Origin: Anaerolineae bacterium
GTDB lineage: Bacteria; Chloroflexota; Anaerolineae; JAAYZQ01
Direction of reading: 5' to 3'
Assembly: GCA_023544525.1 (NCBI GenBank)
Contig: JAMJFU010000010.1
Location: 1-40,670, forward strand
DNA length: 40,670 nt
Numbering within the stretch: the first letter of the stretch is position 1; every line of letters starts with the position of its first letter. The position numbers and the translations under genes were made by a program. Below the pieces are notes generated by a model. The model was not told where the DNA came from, did not search any database, and saw only the letters and a list, made by a program, of their open reading frames with translations. Positions 17,325 through 38,294 of this stretch are shown here, one piece after another.

Positions 17325-17353
17325 TTGTCTTTTGGGCCCGATTCGTTTATAAT
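17325..17353 (+). promoter_or_regulatory. Promoter of the glmS ribozyme-glmS transcript
   Basis: TTGTCT (17325-17330), 17 nt, TATAAT (17348-17353). Transcription from about 17360 gives a leader of roughly 435 nt that contains the whole ribozyme. Confidence 0.8.
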
Positions 17354-17454
17354 GGTCCCACTGAGACGCAAGCTGGGCGCTCGCCCGCACCTGGGGAAAG
17401 GAGGTCACCAGCCAGGAGAGACACCCACTTACAGGTACATCACCTGGGGAAGAC

Positions 17455-17681
17455 AGCGCCAGGACCTGGTCGCCACTACAGGCGGCGAGGTTGACGAGGA
17501 GGAGGTTCCCCGTCTCACGGCGGGGCTAACGCCGGCCATCCCCCGATGGCCGGGCGGAAAATCGACAGATCGGCGGATGCCTCCCGGGCCAGACCATAGC
17601 CCGTATCTTTCCCTCCAGAAGACACACGCGCCGTACAAAACCGCCGGGTGACCGGCGGCACAAAGGGCCGCGCTGATGGTC
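17455..17681 (+). ncRNA. glmS self-cleaving ribozyme (glucosamine-6-phosphate responsive)
   Basis: The leader of glmS carries the conserved core of the glmS ribozyme in the right order. AGCGCC begins at 17455, with predicted cleavage between A17455 and G17456. It is followed by AGGAC and a P2 hairpin (CCTGGTCGCC/GGCGGCGAGG, one mismatch). Next are GTTGACGAGGAGGAGGTT, then ATCGAC...ATCGGCGGATGCCTCCCGG closing P3, and the hairpin GGGC...GCCC followed by GTA. The P4.1-like element is AAAACCGCCGG-GTGA-CCGGCGGCACAAAG. The blocks agree with my memory of the Bacillus subtilis and B. anthracis ribozymes. In that family glucosamine-6-phosphate acts as a cofactor for self-cleavage, which triggers mRNA decay and so gives feedback control of GlmS. 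A 53-nt insertion (17508-17560) forms two extra hairpins. The 3' boundary is approximate. Confidence 0.93.
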
Positions 17682-17795
17682 ACGATGGCCAGCGTTACGC
17701 TGGCAGCAGAACGCAAGCCGCCTATCTCCCCTTCCTCACTGCGACTCCCCGGGCCGGGCTTGCGACGCACCTATCTTCCGCAAGGAGGGAAGCCC

Positions 17796-20007: not shown

Positions 20008-22389
20008 TCAGCGCAGGATCACGGGCAAGTAGATATGGTATGGATAGCCCGCTACCACGCATAGCATATTACTCAACCCCGATTCGCATTCGGTGTACGT
20101 TGAGGTAACATAGTAGCAGTACTGCTCACCTGGTGTAAGGCCGGAATCGGTATAGGTGGTGACGGTGCCCGTTTCTGCGATGAACTGGTATTTTCCCGCC
20201 TGGTCGTAGTACAGCCGGTAGCCGGTGACTTGACTGTCTGCTGTGTGTTCATCGCTCCAGGCCAGGGTGGCTTCGGCCGGTCCGGCCTGTGCCGACAGCA
20301 GGTTCGGGACGGGTGGCTGGCAGACGGGTGGGACTACTTCGATGGCGGCCTGGGCCATCAGATAGGGCGCAGCTCCGGGGACGTCCTTGTTGTGGGTCCA
20401 CAGATCCCAGATGGTGTCGCCCCAGGCCCGGAGTTGCTCGAAGAAGGCATCGGTCTGCACCACATAGGCCTCAGGGGGCAGGGTCAGCTGGCCCGGCGTG
20501 GCATTGATCTCGTGCCGCAGGAACTGGATATACTCGCGGCTGGTGGTCTGGTAGTAGAGGTTGACCTCGATGGCGTCTGGATTCAGCCCGGCGGGCAGCG
20601 AGACGCTGACGTCGTCGTATCCCCCGGCATACTCGGCTGCTGAGAAATAGTCGGGACGTGAAACCCCTTCCCAGACCGGATCGACCAGCCGTTCGTCGGC
20701 CTCGTCGATGAGGAAGCCCTTAGGCGGGATGCGGTTGTCCTTGTAGCGGCCAGTCGACAGCACAAAGTGGAACGTCGTCTCACCCAGAGCGGGGTCCAGC
20801 GAGGTCTTGGCCTCGTAGACCAGCGCATCCACGTGCTCCTCGTTGATGCCCAAAGGTGCTCCTGGTAACCCCTTGAGGGTGCCGACGGCCGCGTCGTAGG
20901 GATTGATCTCGTAAATGAGCGCACCGAGGGCGTAGGCGCGGATGTTGACAAACATACGCCTGCCCTCGGGATAGCCACTGATCAGTTTGTGACCTGTCTG
21001 GTTCTGGATCCGGAAGTGCAGCGTATCGGTGCCAGAATCATAGGCGGCGTTCTGGATGGTGGCCGCCAGGTCCAGCTGCTGTTTGGCCCGATCTGAACCG
21101 GCCAACAGCATCGTCGGGGTAATGCCCACGCCCTGCTCCAGGTCCAGTGTCAGGGTCAACGCCCCCTGGTACAGCAGATCATGGTTCGTCTGGTCATAGT
21201 TCGGCGAACCGGGAATGGCACTGGCCAGCACCCACGAGACCCAGGCGTTGCCGCCGGTCAGGTCATGGAGCGGCTGGCCGCTGAGGGGGTGCTCTACGCT
21301 CCCGTCGGGGCGCAGGATGGCATTGTTGCTGTCCGAACCCTGCCCGACCACGTCACGCATGTGGCAGTCCTGGCACTTGGCGATGTAGTCGTTGGCGTAG
21401 GAGGTTTCGAACTGGTCCGGCGCAAAGGGCCCCAGGCCGGGGGCCCCAGCCTGCTGGCCGTAGGCCGAGATGGCAAATTCGGACCAGGTGCGCTCGACGT
21501 GAAAGTAAGAGTAGGCAGGGTCCAGCTCCGTGGGGAGCGGATCCGTCGGATCGGCGCCCAGGTTGTGGAGGGCAGGGTTCGACACGTCGTGGCAGCTATT
21601 GCAGAAGTAGCGGCTCTTGTGGTAGCGGCTGTAGAGCCGGTCGTGTCCCTCCTGCGCATCGGCAAAGGAGGCACGCCTCGGTTCTAGCTCGCTCACAAAG
21701 TACTGACCGCCCGCGTTTTCGACGTAGGCTGGGCTCACGGGCCGGTTGTCGGGGCCAAAGAAGGGATCGCCGTTGAACAGCAGCGTACCCTGCGCCTGGA
21801 TGACGTCTTCATTATAGGTCAGCAGGGCTTCATCCGCCGACGGCCAGTCGCTGAGATTGGTCTCATCCCAGTAGTTGAGCCAGTCGTTCCCCTCCCGCAT
21901 GCCGGCGTAGGTGTCCTCGAAGAATGGGTCGTACATGCGGTGACAGAAGTCGCAGGTCAACCCGTCAAAGTCGTCGAGGCGCATGGCCGAGGCGTTGGCC
22001 GGGTCCGACCGCCCCCCCAGCCACCCAGCCGGGAAGTGGCAGCGCTCGCAGATGTCCCCCGCATTGGGGTTGCCGTCGAGCGCATACATCGAGTCCTGGA
22101 TGGCGACGGTCATGGCCGGCCACAGCAAAAAGTCGCGAGCGGCCTGGGCCATCATCGAGCCGTTCCAGTTGAAACCCGGCTCCACTGCCGAGTTGTAGCC
22201 CTGGTGGCAACGAAGGCAAACGTCGGCCTCGTTGATGTCCACATTGTTCTCAGGATTGGGTTGCGTGCCCGGCATCCTCACCAGCGGGTCGTCCTGCACA
22301 GCCGGCGGAGGCTGGGCCAACACTGCCGTGCTGACGAGCGCAAGCGCCGCCAGCACCGCGGCCAGCATGAGACTCCTTTTTCCAAGCAT
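20008..22389 (-). CDS. Secreted five-heme cytochrome c with fibronectin type III domain and Y-L-P-V tail
   Basis: The 793-residue product starts with a signal peptide (MLGKRSLMLAAVLAALALVSTAVLAQ). Five CxxCH heme motifs are visible: CLRCH (58-62), CERCH (114-118), CDFCH (146-150), CNSCH and CQDCH (both between roughly 260 and 350). A long beta-rich region follows, then a fibronectin-III-like domain (about 695-780: GPAEATLAWSDEH, GYRLYYDQAG, YTDSGLTPGEQYCYYV). The protein ends YPYHIYLPVILR, the export or anchoring tail seen elsewhere in this window. It should carry electrons outside the membrane; the partner is unknown. ATG 22389 has AAGGAGGAGG upstream; the track start 27 nt earlier is a TTG. 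It lies 40 nt after the ABC ATPase and is the last gene of that operon. Confidence 0.88.
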   Translation of the reverse strand: MLGKRSLMLAAVLAALALVSTAVLAQPPPAVQDDPLVRMPGTQPNPENNVDINEADVCLRCHQGYNSAVEPGFNWNGSMMAQAARDFLLWPAMTVAIQDSMYALDGNPNAGDICERCHFPAGWLGGRSDPANASAMRLDDFDGLTCDFCHRMYDPFFEDTYAGMREGNDWLNYWDETNLSDWPSADEALLTYNEDVIQAQGTLLFNGDPFFGPDNRPVSPAYVENAGGQYFVSELEPRRASFADAQEGHDRLYSRYHKSRYFCNSCHDVSNPALHNLGADPTDPLPTELDPAYSYFHVERTWSEFAISAYGQQAGAPGLGPFAPDQFETSYANDYIAKCQDCHMRDVVGQGSDSNNAILRPDGSVEHPLSGQPLHDLTGGNAWVSWVLASAIPGSPNYDQTNHDLLYQGALTLTLDLEQGVGITPTMLLAGSDRAKQQLDLAATIQNAAYDSGTDTLHFRIQNQTGHKLISGYPEGRRMFVNIRAYALGALIYEINPYDAAVGTLKGLPGAPLGINEEHVDALVYEAKTSLDPALGETTFHFVLSTGRYKDNRIPPKGFLIDEADERLVDPVWEGVSRPDYFSAAEYAGGYDDVSVSLPAGLNPDAIEVNLYYQTTSREYIQFLRHEINATPGQLTLPPEAYVVQTDAFFEQLRAWGDTIWDLWTHNKDVPGAAPYLMAQAAIEVVPPVCQPPVPNLLSAQAGPAEATLAWSDEHTADSQVTGYRLYYDQAGKYQFIAETGTVTTYTDSGLTPGEQYCYYVTSTYTECESGLSNMLCVVAGYPYHIYLPVILR

Positions 22390-22429
22390 TTGTCCTCCTC
22401 CTTGTGTAGCCTGCAAAGTGGAAAACGGG

Positions 22430-32438: not shown

Positions 32439-35400
32439 CTACCAGGGCATCGTACCGCCGCCAAAGCCGGTAATGCTCGCCCCGTCCGGTGTCGTCAGAA
32501 CAGGCCATTCGAACCACAGGCCGATGCGGCCAAACCCCGAGTAGTACGGCCAGGGGTTATCCCCGGCGCTGAGGTCGGTCCGGCCGATGAGCAGGCCGTT
32601 TTGATAGACCTCGACCAGGCCTCCCCGCGTCGCCCGCGCGCCCAAGGCGTCGCCGGCGGCGAGGCTCAGCCCGCCAAAGGTCGCGTGGACCTGCCACACG
32701 TTGCCGGGCGACAGGGTCGCGACCTGTATCGTCCCGGCGGTGGCATCGTACCCGACGTCGATCAGGTAGGTGTCCATGCCACGCAGTTCGCCCGCATCCA
32801 GGCCGCCCACTTTGAGCAGCAGGTCCTGGCGCGTGGCGGTCTCGCTGGCAGCGCCAAAGATAAAGTAGGCCTCTTGGTCGACGCTGAAGAGGTCCGCGTT
32901 CCAGTAGATGCTGCCACTGTCCAGCACCTCGATGCCGGTTGCTTCGTCAAGGACAAAGCTCTCTGTCTCGCCGCCCCACTCGACCACGGTTCCCGTACCG
33001 CCGTGGGAGATGATGGGCAGCCAGACGGTAAAGTCAGCCTGGATCGGCGCCGCAGGTTGCACCGCTTCCGCGGCCTGGACAACCGCCGCCGTGGGGAAGA
33101 GGATGGGCGTGTTGGGGAAGTTGGCGCCGGTCTCGTCAGCACCTATCTCGAAACTGCCCTGCGACGGACGCGGCTGGCGGTCATAGTCCTGGTTGGGGGC
33201 TAGGATGCCGCCCTCCTCGTCGATGCCCATGTTGATGGCCGGAGAGCCGTCCTGCAGGTGGTAGTCACCCAGCAGCGTGACAGGCAGCTCCACGGCCACC
33301 ATGTCGGCGCCGACAAAGTTGGGGTTGCCCCGCCAGGGGAAGACCCGCACGGTAGAGTCATACTCCGCCATGACCAGGGGATCGACGCCTACCATGTTCG
33401 AGGCATCGGGCACGCCGTTCAGGACCTGCATCAGCGTGTAGGTGGGGCTTAGCTGGCCAGCGTTGCCCGCGACACCCAGATCCCAATAGAGAATGGGGCT
33501 GGGGTCTCCGTCGAGGCCGATGCCGGCCACGCCGTCGCCGGTCCAGGTGCCGGCCCGGTTGTCCCAGAAGATGTTGTTGAACATCAGCGCGTCGCCAAAG
33601 ATGGGTGCGTCGGCTGGCAGCGTTGCCTGCAGCAGATCGCTGTTCCTGCTGCTGCTAAAGCCGGCGGGTGCCGCCAGACCGTTGCTGGTCATAGCCGTGG
33701 CCGTGGTCAGGTTGTTCATGACCGTATTGTTGTAGAAACGCACGTCGGGCGCGTCGTTGAGTGAGACACCACCGCCTTCGTGGGTCGAGACGTTGTTGGC
33801 GATGATGTTGTTGTAGACGTTGAAGGGAAAGTTGCCGGCCATCAGGAAGCGCAGGCCGCCACCGTCGTCGTTGGCCAGGTTGCCCTGGAGCAGGTTGGCA
33901 TAGACGTCCACCGGCCCCGCGCCGGGCGAGAGTAGCGCCGGATCGGCCGGCAGCTCGCCGGCGATCATGACGCCGCCGCCCTCGTCGTAGGAGCGGTTAA
34001 AGTAGATGCGGTTGTGGTGGATGCTGCCACCGGGGCTTTCGCCATAGTGGCTGATGCCACCGCCGTACTCTGCGGAAAAGTTGCCGCAGATGTCGTTGGC
34101 CGCAATCTCATAGTTGTCGGTACCGGCAAAGACGCCGATGGCGCCGGCCAGGTTCGTCCCGCCGTTGCCCACGATGCGGTTGTGGGCGATGAGGATGTCG
34201 TCGTTATGGTTGTCCTTAAAGGGCACGTCCCGATCGGGTGTCCCTAGGCGGATGGCGCCGGCGTAGGCGCCGCCGTTGTTCTCGATCTGGTTGTTGGTGA
34301 TGCGCAGGAAGTTGGCATAGCCGTTGACAAAGATGCCGCCACCCTGGATCACCACCTCGGCGGGCACGCCTGGGATCGGCTCCCCGCCGACCTGGTTGAG
34401 GTTGTTGGGGAAGCCCTGCTGGTCGCCACCCTGGATCTTGAAGCCGTCGATAGAGACGGCAAAGTCATTGCTGAACTCGAGGTCCTCGGCAAAGACGGTC
34501 ACGACTGGCCCCTCGTAGATGCGCGGGTTGCCGTCGCCGTCTTCCGGGCTGCCGTCCCAGCCAGGGTAGCCGTCGAAGCCGCGGTTGAGCCAGATGTCGC
34601 CCACGTTCAAGCGCCACTCTTCAGCATAGGCCTCGTTGCCGCCTACGCCACGGCCGTCCAGGATGGTGCCCTGGATGCCGGTGCCGTCGGTGTAGACCCC
34701 ACCTGGGCCGACACCCTGCAGCTTGACCGGCGAGTAGATGACCGGGTTCTCCAGGTAGAAGCCCAGCGGGTTGGTGAACGGTATCACCGCACCGGGATAC
34801 ACCACGACCAGGTCATCCCCGTCCGATGCCCAGGCATCGTCGAGGGCGGCCTGAATCGGCCCAAGGCCGGGCCGGGGATAGGCCGCTTGGTCATAGGTAT
34901 GACCTGGCCCTACCTCGTAGAGGTTGGGCAGGTAGGCGGGTCGCTGGCCCACGCGTCCACGCAAGACGTGGATCGTCAGGCCGTTGACCGTGGTCTGGTT
35001 GTTGCCGGCTACGATGTTGAGCTGGCGTGGGCCGGCATCGACGTTACGGCCGACAGTAGCCACGATCTCGCGATCGGTCCAGCTCACGACGTCCAGCCTG
35101 TTGTCGTCCAGCCAGACGGCGGAGCGCGTATTGTCAGGATCGTAGACGCCAAAGCCCAGCCCGTAGATGGTCAGGTTGCCCTGATCCTCGATGTAGGGCT
35201 TGTCCACGGCAAAGATCTGGGGCGTCGTGTCCTCCAGTTTGCAGGCTGCGATCTGGCTCACATTGGACGCGGGGTTCCAGATGAGGGCCCCGTTCTGCGT
35301 CGGCGCCAGGTCAGACGGCACGAGCACGCCGGGATAGCTCTCGAAGGTGGTGCCGATGGAGCGGTAGCCGGGATGGTATCTTTCGTTGAAGGCGCCGGGC

Positions 35401-38294
35401 TGGCCCGGGTCGTTGCCATAGATATAATACATGCTGGCGTTCATGCCAGAGGGCGTCGGCGTGTTGTAGGTTGCGGCCGAGGGCAGGAGCACCTCGTACA
35501 CCCCGTGGAAGTCGGAGTGGACCGTGTGCACCAGCCGCCCGGTAAAGTCATAGATGCCCATGGGCATGTTGGCCATTCCGCCTTTTTCGCCAAAGAAGAG
35601 CTCAAAGGGGTTGGTCGAGACATTCAGGTCGTCGATGATGTAACCGCGCCAGCGGCCGGGAGGTGGTACCCTGGTCCACAGCGTAAAGATGGGCGCCACA
35701 CCCTTTTGATCGCGGACCTCGACCAACTTGACATTGCACAGAGGCATCTCCTGGCCCTCGAAGCGGCTGCCGCCCACCTCGACGTAACCCGGGTTCTCGA
35801 CAGCATCGAGGCCATCAGGCTCGATCCCGGCCACGTCGACGACGTGGAGCGGCCCTGCGCAGGCCGGCGGTGGGATCTCGGGATAGAACACGTCGCCATC
35901 ATAGATGTTGACGTCTTCCTCCTTGGTCACCTCGTACAGCGGCCGGCCCGTGTACGGGTCGTCCGGGATGACCACCTCTACCAGGTAGTCGCCCACGGGG
36001 AGGGGTATTGGCGCAGGCAGTGAAATGCCGTCGGTACCGGTAAAGATCTCGCCAAAGCCCCAGTTGCCGGGCAGCTCCTGCTGTCCCTGGCTGAACTGGA
36101 CGCCCATGGGTGGCCCTTCCAGGCAGTCGTAATCGCCGGTTGCCGGCGGGAAGGACGGAAAGTCCACCGGCTCGCCGTAGACGTCCAGCGGCTGGCAGTT
36201 CTTGGGCCGCACAAAATCCTCGGTGGTTGTGGTGGCCAGCAGAGGGCCCTTTGCATATGAGCCATCTGCATCGAACACAAAGCTGCCGTCGGGGTTCTTC
36301 ACCGTGGCATAGAGCCGCATCTGCAGGTTGGGGATGCCCGGCTGCCAGGGTTCGGCACCGGCGTAGCGGGCGTCGTCTTCGGCCCGCACGGTGTCAAAGA
36401 ACACTGTGCCGGCGATATCGCCGTGGGTCCCCGGCTCGTAGGGATGCACGCCCCAGTCCACGCGGCCCCACTGGCTAAAGATGGGCAGCACGCCCAGGTC
36501 GACGATATTGCCCAGGACCGTCGTCTCCTCTGTGGCGTTGCTGGCCTGGTAGGTCACGCCCGTGGTGTGGTAGAGGTCGCTGTAGGCCTCCAGCACCATC
36601 CAGGAGCTCATGGGGTAGCCCTTTTCCAGGGCCCAGTTGCCATTTGCGTCGGTCACCGAGGCGATGGACATGCGATCGATCTCGGTATTGTCCCGGTCGC
36701 GCAGCACGACGACATAGTCGGGCACGCCCGGCTCGCCGGGATCCTGCCGGCCGTTCTCATTGAGGTCCCTGAAGACCGTGCCATACCACTTGGTGAACCA
36801 GTTGGTCATGGTCCGCACGCCGATGTCGGTCGTCTCACCCGCCTGTACCGTGACCTGCACAAAGTCCAGGATATAGTGCTGGTTCAGGTCCCAGTAAGAC
36901 AGGAAATAGTCGCCGGGCGGCACGTTGTCGATCTGGAAGCTGCCGTCGGCCTCTCCCATCCCGACCCAGACCGCTGTATCCCCGCCTTGCAGGCTGTTCA
37001 GCGACAGCCAGGGGTAGGCGATCGGTTCGTCCAGCTTGGCGCCCATGAGCCCGCCCCAGATGTCGGCATTGTGGGGTAACCCGCCCTGGGAGGGCGTGTA
37101 GGTGGTGATGCCCATGATCACGCCCTTGATGCTGCCGTAGGTGGCGTCTGTTACCGTCAGCGTGTCCGTGGGCCGGACAAAACCAAAGATGGTCCAGGGG
37201 AAGGGCTCACCGGCCACGATGAACTCGTTGTCCAGGCCGGTGCCGGCCTCCTGCAGCCAGGTGTCCCAGCCGTGGGAGCCCTCCAGCGTCGTAGTCTGGA
37301 CCCAGTCCGTCCCGTCGGGTGGGGTCACCAGCACGTCGTAGCGGATGGTGCCGATGTTGGGGATGTTGATGATGCCATAATCGTCGCTCAGGCACTCACC
37401 GCCGATCTTGGTGATATTCAGCGGCATGCCGTCGGCGTCGACCAGGACCTCGCCGGTGTCCGGGTCCTTCTCATACTCGGTGCACAGCGGGTTGCCAAAG
37501 AGGTCGGCCGTGATCTCGCCGGCGATGTCGTTGAGGCTGACCCGGAAGCCGGCCATGCTCGTCGGACCGGGTGCCGGCTGCTCGACAGGTGCGTCGAACT
37601 GGCTGTTGGTCATCGAGTTGTCGTTAAAGACCTTGATGACCATCGAGGCCGGCGGCAGCGGGTGGGGATGCACGGCGACTGTGACCAGGCCCGGGTCCAC
37701 CAGGGGCACGGTAAAGTGCTCGCCGTCGACCTTGTAGCCGTCGGCCAGGACCGAGATCAGGTACTTGCCGGGCGGGAGGGTGATGCCCGTCGTCTCGTTC
37801 AACTCGTCCTGGGTGCCCTGGGTGACGATGGGCGCCCAGCCAGGGGTGGTATGCACCCCGGGCCACTCGCAGCCCTCGGGATAGTTCAGGTTGCGGTCGA
37901 TCGGGTTGGTATTGGTCGGGTAGTCTGTGTAGGCCCAGCAGTCAGTGGTGTCGAAGGGGTCGCCGGTGTTGTCCTCCACGATCTGGAACTCGTACTCGGT
38001 CACCAGATCCCCTGCGTACACCGCGCCACCCAAAGCCTTGAGCTCGGTGCGTGCGGCGACCACCCGCAGGGTGAGGGTGTTCGTCTGGGCTGGGGCCTGG
38101 ATGGCCGCAGCCTCGATGGGAGTCCTGGCCAGCATCTCGCCTGCCTCTGCCCCTGGCACCGCGGCCACAGCGCGTGGCATGGTCAACAGCAGCGGTATCA
38201 ATAACAACACTGGCAGTAGGGTCAGCAGAATGGCCCAGGCTGGGTGCCTTGGCCGGCTCTCGGAGCCGGCGTCGGCTTGCACTTTTCGCATCAT
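32439..38294 (-). CDS. Giant secreted multidomain beta-helix protein (1951 residues)
   Basis: A signal peptide (WAILLTLLPVLLLIPLLLTM...AVAA, about 19-45) leads into several beta-sandwich or carboxypeptidase-regulatory-like segments. An SdrD B-like repeat lies near 510-590 (GTVFRDLNENGRQDPGEPGVPD) and an IPT/TIG-like domain near 1060-1140 (NLTIYGLGFGVYDP). A long right-handed parallel beta-helix covers about 1150-1700 (repeated N-N-x-I/V units such as ITNNQIENNGG, VYNNIIANNVS, FYNNTVMNN). FTVWLPIISHGG lies near 1770, followed by a final concanavalin/LamG-like domain of about 180 residues. It must be surface-exposed or released; adhesion, matrix or scaffold functions are plausible. GAGGAGGAG precedes the double ATG at 38294. 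It is co-directional with the three cupredoxin genes (78 nt to the next). Confidence 0.88.
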   Translation of the reverse strand: MMRKVQADAGSESRPRHPAWAILLTLLPVLLLIPLLLTMPRAVAAVPGAEAGEMLARTPIEAAAIQAPAQTNTLTLRVVAARTELKALGGAVYAGDLVTEYEFQIVEDNTGDPFDTTDCWAYTDYPTNTNPIDRNLNYPEGCEWPGVHTTPGWAPIVTQGTQDELNETTGITLPPGKYLISVLADGYKVDGEHFTVPLVDPGLVTVAVHPHPLPPASMVIKVFNDNSMTNSQFDAPVEQPAPGPTSMAGFRVSLNDIAGEITADLFGNPLCTEYEKDPDTGEVLVDADGMPLNITKIGGECLSDDYGIINIPNIGTIRYDVLVTPPDGTDWVQTTTLEGSHGWDTWLQEAGTGLDNEFIVAGEPFPWTIFGFVRPTDTLTVTDATYGSIKGVIMGITTYTPSQGGLPHNADIWGGLMGAKLDEPIAYPWLSLNSLQGGDTAVWVGMGEADGSFQIDNVPPGDYFLSYWDLNQHYILDFVQVTVQAGETTDIGVRTMTNWFTKWYGTVFRDLNENGRQDPGEPGVPDYVVVLRDRDNTEIDRMSIASVTDANGNWALEKGYPMSSWMVLEAYSDLYHTTGVTYQASNATEETTVLGNIVDLGVLPIFSQWGRVDWGVHPYEPGTHGDIAGTVFFDTVRAEDDARYAGAEPWQPGIPNLQMRLYATVKNPDGSFVFDADGSYAKGPLLATTTTEDFVRPKNCQPLDVYGEPVDFPSFPPATGDYDCLEGPPMGVQFSQGQQELPGNWGFGEIFTGTDGISLPAPIPLPVGDYLVEVVIPDDPYTGRPLYEVTKEEDVNIYDGDVFYPEIPPPACAGPLHVVDVAGIEPDGLDAVENPGYVEVGGSRFEGQEMPLCNVKLVEVRDQKGVAPIFTLWTRVPPPGRWRGYIIDDLNVSTNPFELFFGEKGGMANMPMGIYDFTGRLVHTVHSDFHGVYEVLLPSAATYNTPTPSGMNASMYYIYGNDPGQPGAFNERYHPGYRSIGTTFESYPGVLVPSDLAPTQNGALIWNPASNVSQIAACKLEDTTPQIFAVDKPYIEDQGNLTIYGLGFGVYDPDNTRSAVWLDDNRLDVVSWTDREIVATVGRNVDAGPRQLNIVAGNNQTTVNGLTIHVLRGRVGQRPAYLPNLYEVGPGHTYDQAAYPRPGLGPIQAALDDAWASDGDDLVVVYPGAVIPFTNPLGFYLENPVIYSPVKLQGVGPGGVYTDGTGIQGTILDGRGVGGNEAYAEEWRLNVGDIWLNRGFDGYPGWDGSPEDGDGNPRIYEGPVVTVFAEDLEFSNDFAVSIDGFKIQGGDQQGFPNNLNQVGGEPIPGVPAEVVIQGGGIFVNGYANFLRITNNQIENNGGAYAGAIRLGTPDRDVPFKDNHNDDILIAHNRIVGNGGTNLAGAIGVFAGTDNYEIAANDICGNFSAEYGGGISHYGESPGGSIHHNRIYFNRSYDEGGGVMIAGELPADPALLSPGAGPVDVYANLLQGNLANDDGGGLRFLMAGNFPFNVYNNIIANNVSTHEGGGVSLNDAPDVRFYNNTVMNNLTTATAMTSNGLAAPAGFSSSRNSDLLQATLPADAPIFGDALMFNNIFWDNRAGTWTGDGVAGIGLDGDPSPILYWDLGVAGNAGQLSPTYTLMQVLNGVPDASNMVGVDPLVMAEYDSTVRVFPWRGNPNFVGADMVAVELPVTLLGDYHLQDGSPAINMGIDEEGGILAPNQDYDRQPRPSQGSFEIGADETGANFPNTPILFPTAAVVQAAEAVQPAAPIQADFTVWLPIISHGGTGTVVEWGGETESFVLDEATGIEVLDSGSIYWNADLFSVDQEAYFIFGAASETATRQDLLLKVGGLDAGELRGMDTYLIDVGYDATAGTIQVATLSPGNVWQVHATFGGLSLAAGDALGARATRGGLVEVYQNGLLIGRTDLSAGDNPWPYYSGFGRIGLWFEWPVLTTPDGASITGFGGGTMPW

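Follow-up and report, generated by a model that had tools for sequence, protein, structure and literature searches.

A glmS ribozyme of the Anaerolineae with inserted core hairpins, a helix at the cleavage site and a candidate anti-Shine-Dalgarno strand

The glmS leader of an uncultured bacterium of the class Anaerolineae (Chloroflexota) resembles a self-cleaving ribozyme best known from Gram-positive bacteria, which raises the question of whether it is a true member of this family, whether it was acquired or inherited, and how it might control glmS. Here we address this question in a window of 40,670 nt (the whole stretch of DNA that was analysed) and in related genomes. We consider it probable that the locus encodes a glucosamine-6-phosphate (GlcN6P)-activated self-cleaving ribozyme of an Anaerolineae-type architecture, in which release of a strand upstream of the cleavage site would let an anti-Shine-Dalgarno (anti-SD) sequence block the Shine-Dalgarno (SD) stretch, perhaps together with decay by RNase J.

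Identification of the ribozyme

A cmscan search against all of Rfam, covering the covariance search proposed in a preliminary description of this DNA, returned RF00234 at 17444-17683 on the plus strand with 50.7 bits (E 5.3e-9; gathering cut-off 37 bits). The match spans the full model length (positions 1-167 of 167), and no second copy occurs in the 4.5 Mb genome. The core blocks that had been claimed for the glmS leader (17360-17795) are all found on the plus strand and in order, namely AGCGCC (17455-17460), GTTGACGAGGAGGAGGTT (17490-17507), ATCGGCGGATGCCTCCCGG (17569-17587), a GTGA-capped stem (17641-17658) and CACAAAG (17659-17665). The preliminary description was also right in placing the element between a promoter and the glmS start (Table 1), in a non-Firmicutes genome and in DNA of native base composition, the GC content around the ribozyme being 0.62 within a window range of 0.58-0.66. 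The end that it had given, 17681, coincides with the last base of the P3.1 3' strand (17676-17681); it did not mention the double-hairpin insertion in P2, the P0 helix or the complementarity between J3/4 and the SD that are described below.

The locus is like RF00234 members of the Bacillus and Thermoanaerobacter type in its position ahead of glmS, its cleavage-site sequence, its helices P1, P2, P2.1, P2.2, P3, P3.1 and P4 with a GNRA-type cap, and its conserved blocks GACGAGG, AUCGA and GCGG. The double pseudoknot P2.1/P2.2 is indicated by the complementarity of CGA with UCG and of CGCC with GGCG, and the inner hairpin of P4 is tetraloop-capped (CCGCCGG-GUGA-CCGGCGG). Score, leader position, A/G site, P2.1/P2.2, P3.1 and P4 all agree with the family. 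Judged from its sequence, the canonical catalytic core (P1, P2, P2.1, P2.2, P3, P3.1, P4) is present and the locus is a genuine glmS ribozyme by every testable feature, with GlcN6P-activated cleavage as the predicted activity.

The downstream gene starts at ATG 17796 with the N-terminus MCGIVGYVG, which places the catalytic cysteine at residue 2, and the RF00234 match lies 113 nt to its 5' side. An in-frame ATG at 17676, within the P3.1 3' strand, opens a 659-aa frame that could lead gene callers to place the glmS start within the ribozyme, burying the catalytic cysteine. The leader 5' of P0 (17370-17445) contains repeats of CACCTGGGGAA and an SD-like AGGAGG near 17400. Elsewhere in the window, the minus strand encodes an 802-aa, multihaem cytochrome-like protein with several CxxCH motifs (20008-22416) and a 1951-aa open frame (32439-38294).

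Table 1 Features of the glmS leader and gene in the window.
Feature	Positions	Strand	Basis
Sigma-70-type promoter, TTGTCT-17-TATAAT	17325..17353	+	10/12 matches; 0.0 expected in shuffles
P0 5' strand GGGGAAGA, 5' of the cleavage site and expected on the upstream fragment once the RNA is cut	17446..17453	+	class covariation
Cleavage site A(-1)/G1, predicted (A17455, G17456)	17455..17456	+	RF00234 alignment
P2.2 5' strand CGCC, partner GGCG 17572-17575	17457..17460	+	sequence; core numbering of PMC7125110
P1 hairpin	17462..17492	+	RF00234 match, 22-sequence alignment
P2.1 5' strand CGA, partner UCG 17562-17564	17495..17497	+	sequence; core numbering of PMC7125110
P2, GGAGG 17501-17505 with CCUCC 17580-17584	17501..17584	+	RF00234 match, 22-sequence alignment
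Inserted stem A, 7 bp, loop UCAC (GNRA in most relatives)	17508..17525	+	7/7 pairs with compensatory changes
Linker CUAA between inserted stems, conserved	17526..17529	+	81/102 parsed relatives
Inserted stem B, 11 bp and one bulged G (length variable elsewhere)	17530..17556	+	alignment
P3 hairpin	17585..17603	+	sequence, RF00234 alignment
P3.1, P3 loop GACCAU with AUGGUC	17592-17597 with 17676-17681	+	sequence, RF00234 alignment
P0 3' strand UCUUUCCC in J3/4, predicted to pair with 17446-17453	17606..17613	+	class covariation
Candidate anti-SD UUUCCCUCC in J3/4	17608..17616	+	complementary to 17784-17792; class-level covariation
P4, inner hairpin 17641-17658, GUGA cap 17648-17651	17628..17673	+	RF00234 match
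glmS SD stretch GGAGGGAAG	17784..17792	+	sequence
glmS, 619 aa	17796..19655	+	TIGR01135 equivalog, 791 bits (cut-off 418)

Distribution and origin

RF00234 matched 140 of the 298 Anaerolineae genomes searched and, in a sample of the Chloroflexota, 91 of 301, about 70 of these 91 lying outside the Anaerolineae. The Rfam model exceeded its cut-off in only 89 of the 298 class genomes, compared with 177 matched by R1, a model made from P1-P2 with the insertion whose 22 source sequences also come from Anaerolineae. Leaders were gathered via RF00234 or GlmS matches and motif patterns were used to parse them, a procedure that misses divergent copies. The closest GlmS proteins come almost entirely from Chloroflexota, led by 'Chloroflexi bacterium TumbabinsA95' (80%) and followed mostly by Anaerolineae, whereas plasmid-borne Bacillota GlmS are less than 50% identical. 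Because of this wide distribution in class and phylum and the relatedness of GlmS, we conclude that the ribozyme is an old resident of the phylum, native to Anaerolineae and common in Chloroflexota.

The preliminary suggestion that this copy either extends the range of the family or records a transfer is contradicted by these counts, which fit neither a stray transfer nor an extension by a single genome. Gram-positive bacteria are the best-known hosts of the family (PMC10907184), which would favour a recent introduction from Firmicutes; however, the ribozyme is so widespread in the class and phylum samples that transfer is unneeded, its class-type architecture is absent from both Bacillota controls, the closest GlmS relatives point to Chloroflexota and the GC content is native. 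We rejected this scenario as highly improbable, since both the distribution and the GlmS relatedness contradict it. Separately, a contig labelled Desulfovibrio sp. DeMMO6_25 (L039, JAGUZX010000095.1) encodes a GlmS of the Chloroflexota kind (62% identical) behind a glmS ribozyme like those of Anaerolineae, and is possibly mislabelled or misbinned.

Two hairpins within the catalytic core

The Anaerolineae type has two inserted hairpins at a place where canonical RF00234 members have approximately UUUA, after the P2 5' strand and before the P2.1 3' strand. In the window leader they are arranged as stem A of 18 nt, the linker CUAA, stem B and then GAAAA. An alignment of 22 sequences shows compensatory changes at 13 of 13 pairs of stems A and B, and 97.2% of the cells of the whole structure are paired, compared with 72.2 +/- 1.3 after shuffling and about 45% after sliding. 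Stem A is exactly 18 nt long in 76 of 102 parsed relatives, and its loop is GCGA, GCAA or GUGA in 34 of 58 distinct 18-nt stems. The two covarying hairpins inside the catalytic core, at the joint of P2 and P2.1, are thus a solid prediction from the alignment. Some Anaerolineae ribozymes lack the insertion, and several sequences of other Chloroflexota families have it without P0 (L277-L281, L296). The CUAA and GAAA flanks of stem B may resemble a UAA/GAN motif.

In McCown et al. 2011, glmS ribozymes of Deinococcus-Thermus reportedly include variants whose catalytic core has additional stems; the Anaerolineae type would be like them in this respect. A literature search on Chloroflexota glmS ribozymes and additional stems, which did not extend to the McCown 2011 and 2012 distribution papers, found nothing on point, and an earlier description of the inserted hairpins is possible.

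A helix at the cleavage site

The bases 5' of the cleavage site are unpaired in the Rfam RF00234 model. In the window leader they can form a helix with J3/4, here termed P0, which ends 2 nt 5' of G1; J3/4 is itself enlarged, to about 24 nt compared with about 4-5 nt in the canonical type. Among 50 relatives, the best contiguous helix scored 7.05 with a leader's own partner and 5.72 +/- 0.15 with permuted partners, a statistic that favours pairing, equally so for the permuted partners; the maximum over 5000 permutations was 6.26, and none reached the observed value. The contrast persisted when clustering reduced the set to 33 leaders that are dissimilar (7.14 vs 5.53 +/- 0.18), in permutation tests that remove shared ancestry only partly and do not fully model the tree. 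P0 could be formed in 67 of 93 leaders, in 55 of which its 3' end is 2-3 nt away from G1, and its pairs change in concert, as in AGGACAAU/AUUGUCCU, GAAGACG/CGUCUUU and CCAUGACG/CGUCAUGG. J3/4 is about 4-5 nt long and P0 is absent in both Bacillota controls and in most of the other Chloroflexota sequences that were inspected, with one exception among the non-class genomes, L282, which has both the enlarged J3/4 and P0.

A first duplex-energy test over an over-wide region was noisy, and nested folding of the window leader, unconstrained or core-constrained, which ignores pseudoknots and co-transcriptional order, did not reliably recover P0. Alignment A1, in which P0, J3/4 and P4 are misaligned, served for viewing conservation only. 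The strong covariation nevertheless gives solid comparative grounds for predicting a P0 helix between the bases 5' of the cleavage site and the enlarged J3/4 of Anaerolineae. A literature search on glmS ribozyme leaders upstream of the cleavage site returned nothing on point.

A candidate anti-Shine-Dalgarno strand

J3/4 of the window leader is also complementary to the glmS SD over 9 bp, 6 nt being common with P0. Along with the insertion and P0, this candidate anti-SD sets the RNA apart from the Bacillus and Thermoanaerobacter type. Across 33 leaders, the SD scored 6.61 with its own J3/4 and 5.70 +/- 0.16 with those of others, and it pairs better with J3/4 than with P1, P2, P3, P4 or shuffled J3/4. 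Covariation extends to the flanks beyond the GGAG/CUCC core (3.28 vs 2.39 +/- 0.17, n=36; p 0.0026, n=16), as illustrated by TTTGGAGG/CCTCCAAA, CAGGAGGG/CCCTCCTG and TGGGGAGAGT/ATTCTCCCCA; on the 5' side of the SD, opposite J3/4 bases that lie outside P0, it reaches significance with n=36 and is marginal with n=16 (p 0.04). In the 36 leaders with both helices, bases are shared in 30 and a 3' toehold is present in 27, and the mean helix energies in the comparison of P0 with SD-J3/4 are alike (-11.5 and -12.0 kcal/mol).

Since in many leaders the same J3/4 strand could pair in P0 or with the SD, cleavage could release the anti-SD and switch off translation. We propose that GlcN6P bound in the core would activate cleavage between A17455 and G17456, as in the family. 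The P0 5' strand would then sit on the upstream product, held by only about 8 bp, and its loss would free the J3/4 strand to pair with the SD via a short toehold beyond P0, blocking ribosomes and turning off glmS translation. The 5'-OH product would probably be degraded by RNase J as well. Either route would reduce the amount of GlmS once its product is abundant. That the Anaerolineae ribozyme is a true translational riboswitch, in which cleavage unmasks an anti-SD covered by P0 and toehold exchange shuts the ribosome-binding site, is a tentative proposal, argued from comparison of the leaders, that falls somewhat short of an even chance.

For the Bacillus glmS cleavage product, the literature consulted describes only decay mediated by RNase J1 (PMC3997798, PMC10907184), from which the candidate switch would differ. 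Action of the plain Bacillus type may also suffice here, with RNase J degrading the mRNA from its 5'-OH end, P0 and the inserted hairpins only stabilising the fold and the J3/4-SD complementarity being unused. We regard this as quite possible, though it too falls below an even chance: the mechanism is known from B. subtilis, the host genome has two RNase J-family matches over the curated cut-off, and P0 also occurs in leaders without an anti-SD (for example L219 and L243, which carry the CCAUGACG/CGUCAUGG helix), so that its primary role need not be translational. However, decay by RNase J leaves the SD-J3/4 flank covariation unexplained, above all that of the SD 5' flank facing J3/4 bases outside P0.

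Folding predictions bear on whether the exchange of helices would follow cleavage. When the 5' fragment was removed in nested folding of 46 leaders, SD-J3/4 pairing was predicted to rise by over 0.2 in 11, to fall in two and to change little in the others. L101, L261 and L015 are leaders with a predicted rise. At the window locus, core-constrained nested folding, which ignores pseudoknots and kinetics, gave an SD-J3/4 probability of 0.00 both before and after cleavage, a local hairpin CUUCC-GCAA-GGAGG occupying the SD instead; unconstrained folding did not recover the helix either. Because nested folding prefers this hairpin, the switch at this locus is only a candidate, and we have not classified the locus as an anti-SD riboswitch since no change in SD pairing between the two states is predicted there. 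These predictions count against the switch at the locus, with limited weight given that pseudoknots and co-transcriptional order are ignored. Nor is the anti-SD universal, since about 37% of 59 class members have a J3/4 without CUCC.

In many leaders (for example L104, L047 and L037) the SD-J3/4 helix is predicted to be as strong in the uncleaved RNA as after cleavage, as would be expected if it formed before cleavage too and acted as a constitutive or co-transcriptional brake, with P0 mainly positioning the cleavage site. We consider such a brake unlikely: P0 can form while the SD has yet to be transcribed, an order that the equilibrium model ignores, and the two helices share bases in most leaders that have both. 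Release of the anti-SD by cleavage, as proposed above, would resemble translational anti-SD riboswitches in having a pair of helices that exclude each other, one of them occluding the ribosome-binding site. Unlike in those riboswitches, it would not be ligand-stabilised folding that drives the exchange but ligand-activated cleavage of the chain, through which the competing strand is lost.

Ribozymes ahead of other genes

Some Anaerolineae have a second ribozyme ahead of genes other than glmS. Four of these precede glnA (L304, L306, L310 and L329, at G262:C14, G242:C1, G201:C4 and G163:C3; TIGR00653 checked on L306) and have an altered cleavage-site core, AGCGGCUGA, the exact pattern of which occurs four times in 297 class genomes, each time ahead of glnA. 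A further set (family f27: L335-L338, L340, L341, L343-L345, L348) precedes an ada/ogt-like gene combining an AraC-HTH with an O6-methylguanine-DNA methyltransferase (TIGR00589, 103 bits on L336, the only member checked), with the core variants AGCGGCUGG, UCACGAGG and AAAAUCGGAU. In the glnA set and in ada-set members with a readable 5' end, the cleavage site reads AGCGGCUG in place of AGCGC[CA][UA]G. The core is normal in ribozymes found ahead of a glutamate-synthase-like (gltB-like) gene (L307, G191:C114; L315, G287:C388; family checked on L315) and of a glycolate-oxidase-like gene (L317, G034:C134). The altered core may reflect a changed ligand or changed catalysis, and the glnA-associated ribozymes are possibly a ligand-switched variant or part of a wider GlcN6P regulon.

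Implications

With the predicted P0 helix, nucleotides 5' of the cleavage site would belong to the ribozyme structure itself across a bacterial class. If the proposed switch is true, an anti-SD released by cleavage would be a new way of coupling RNA catalysis to translation.
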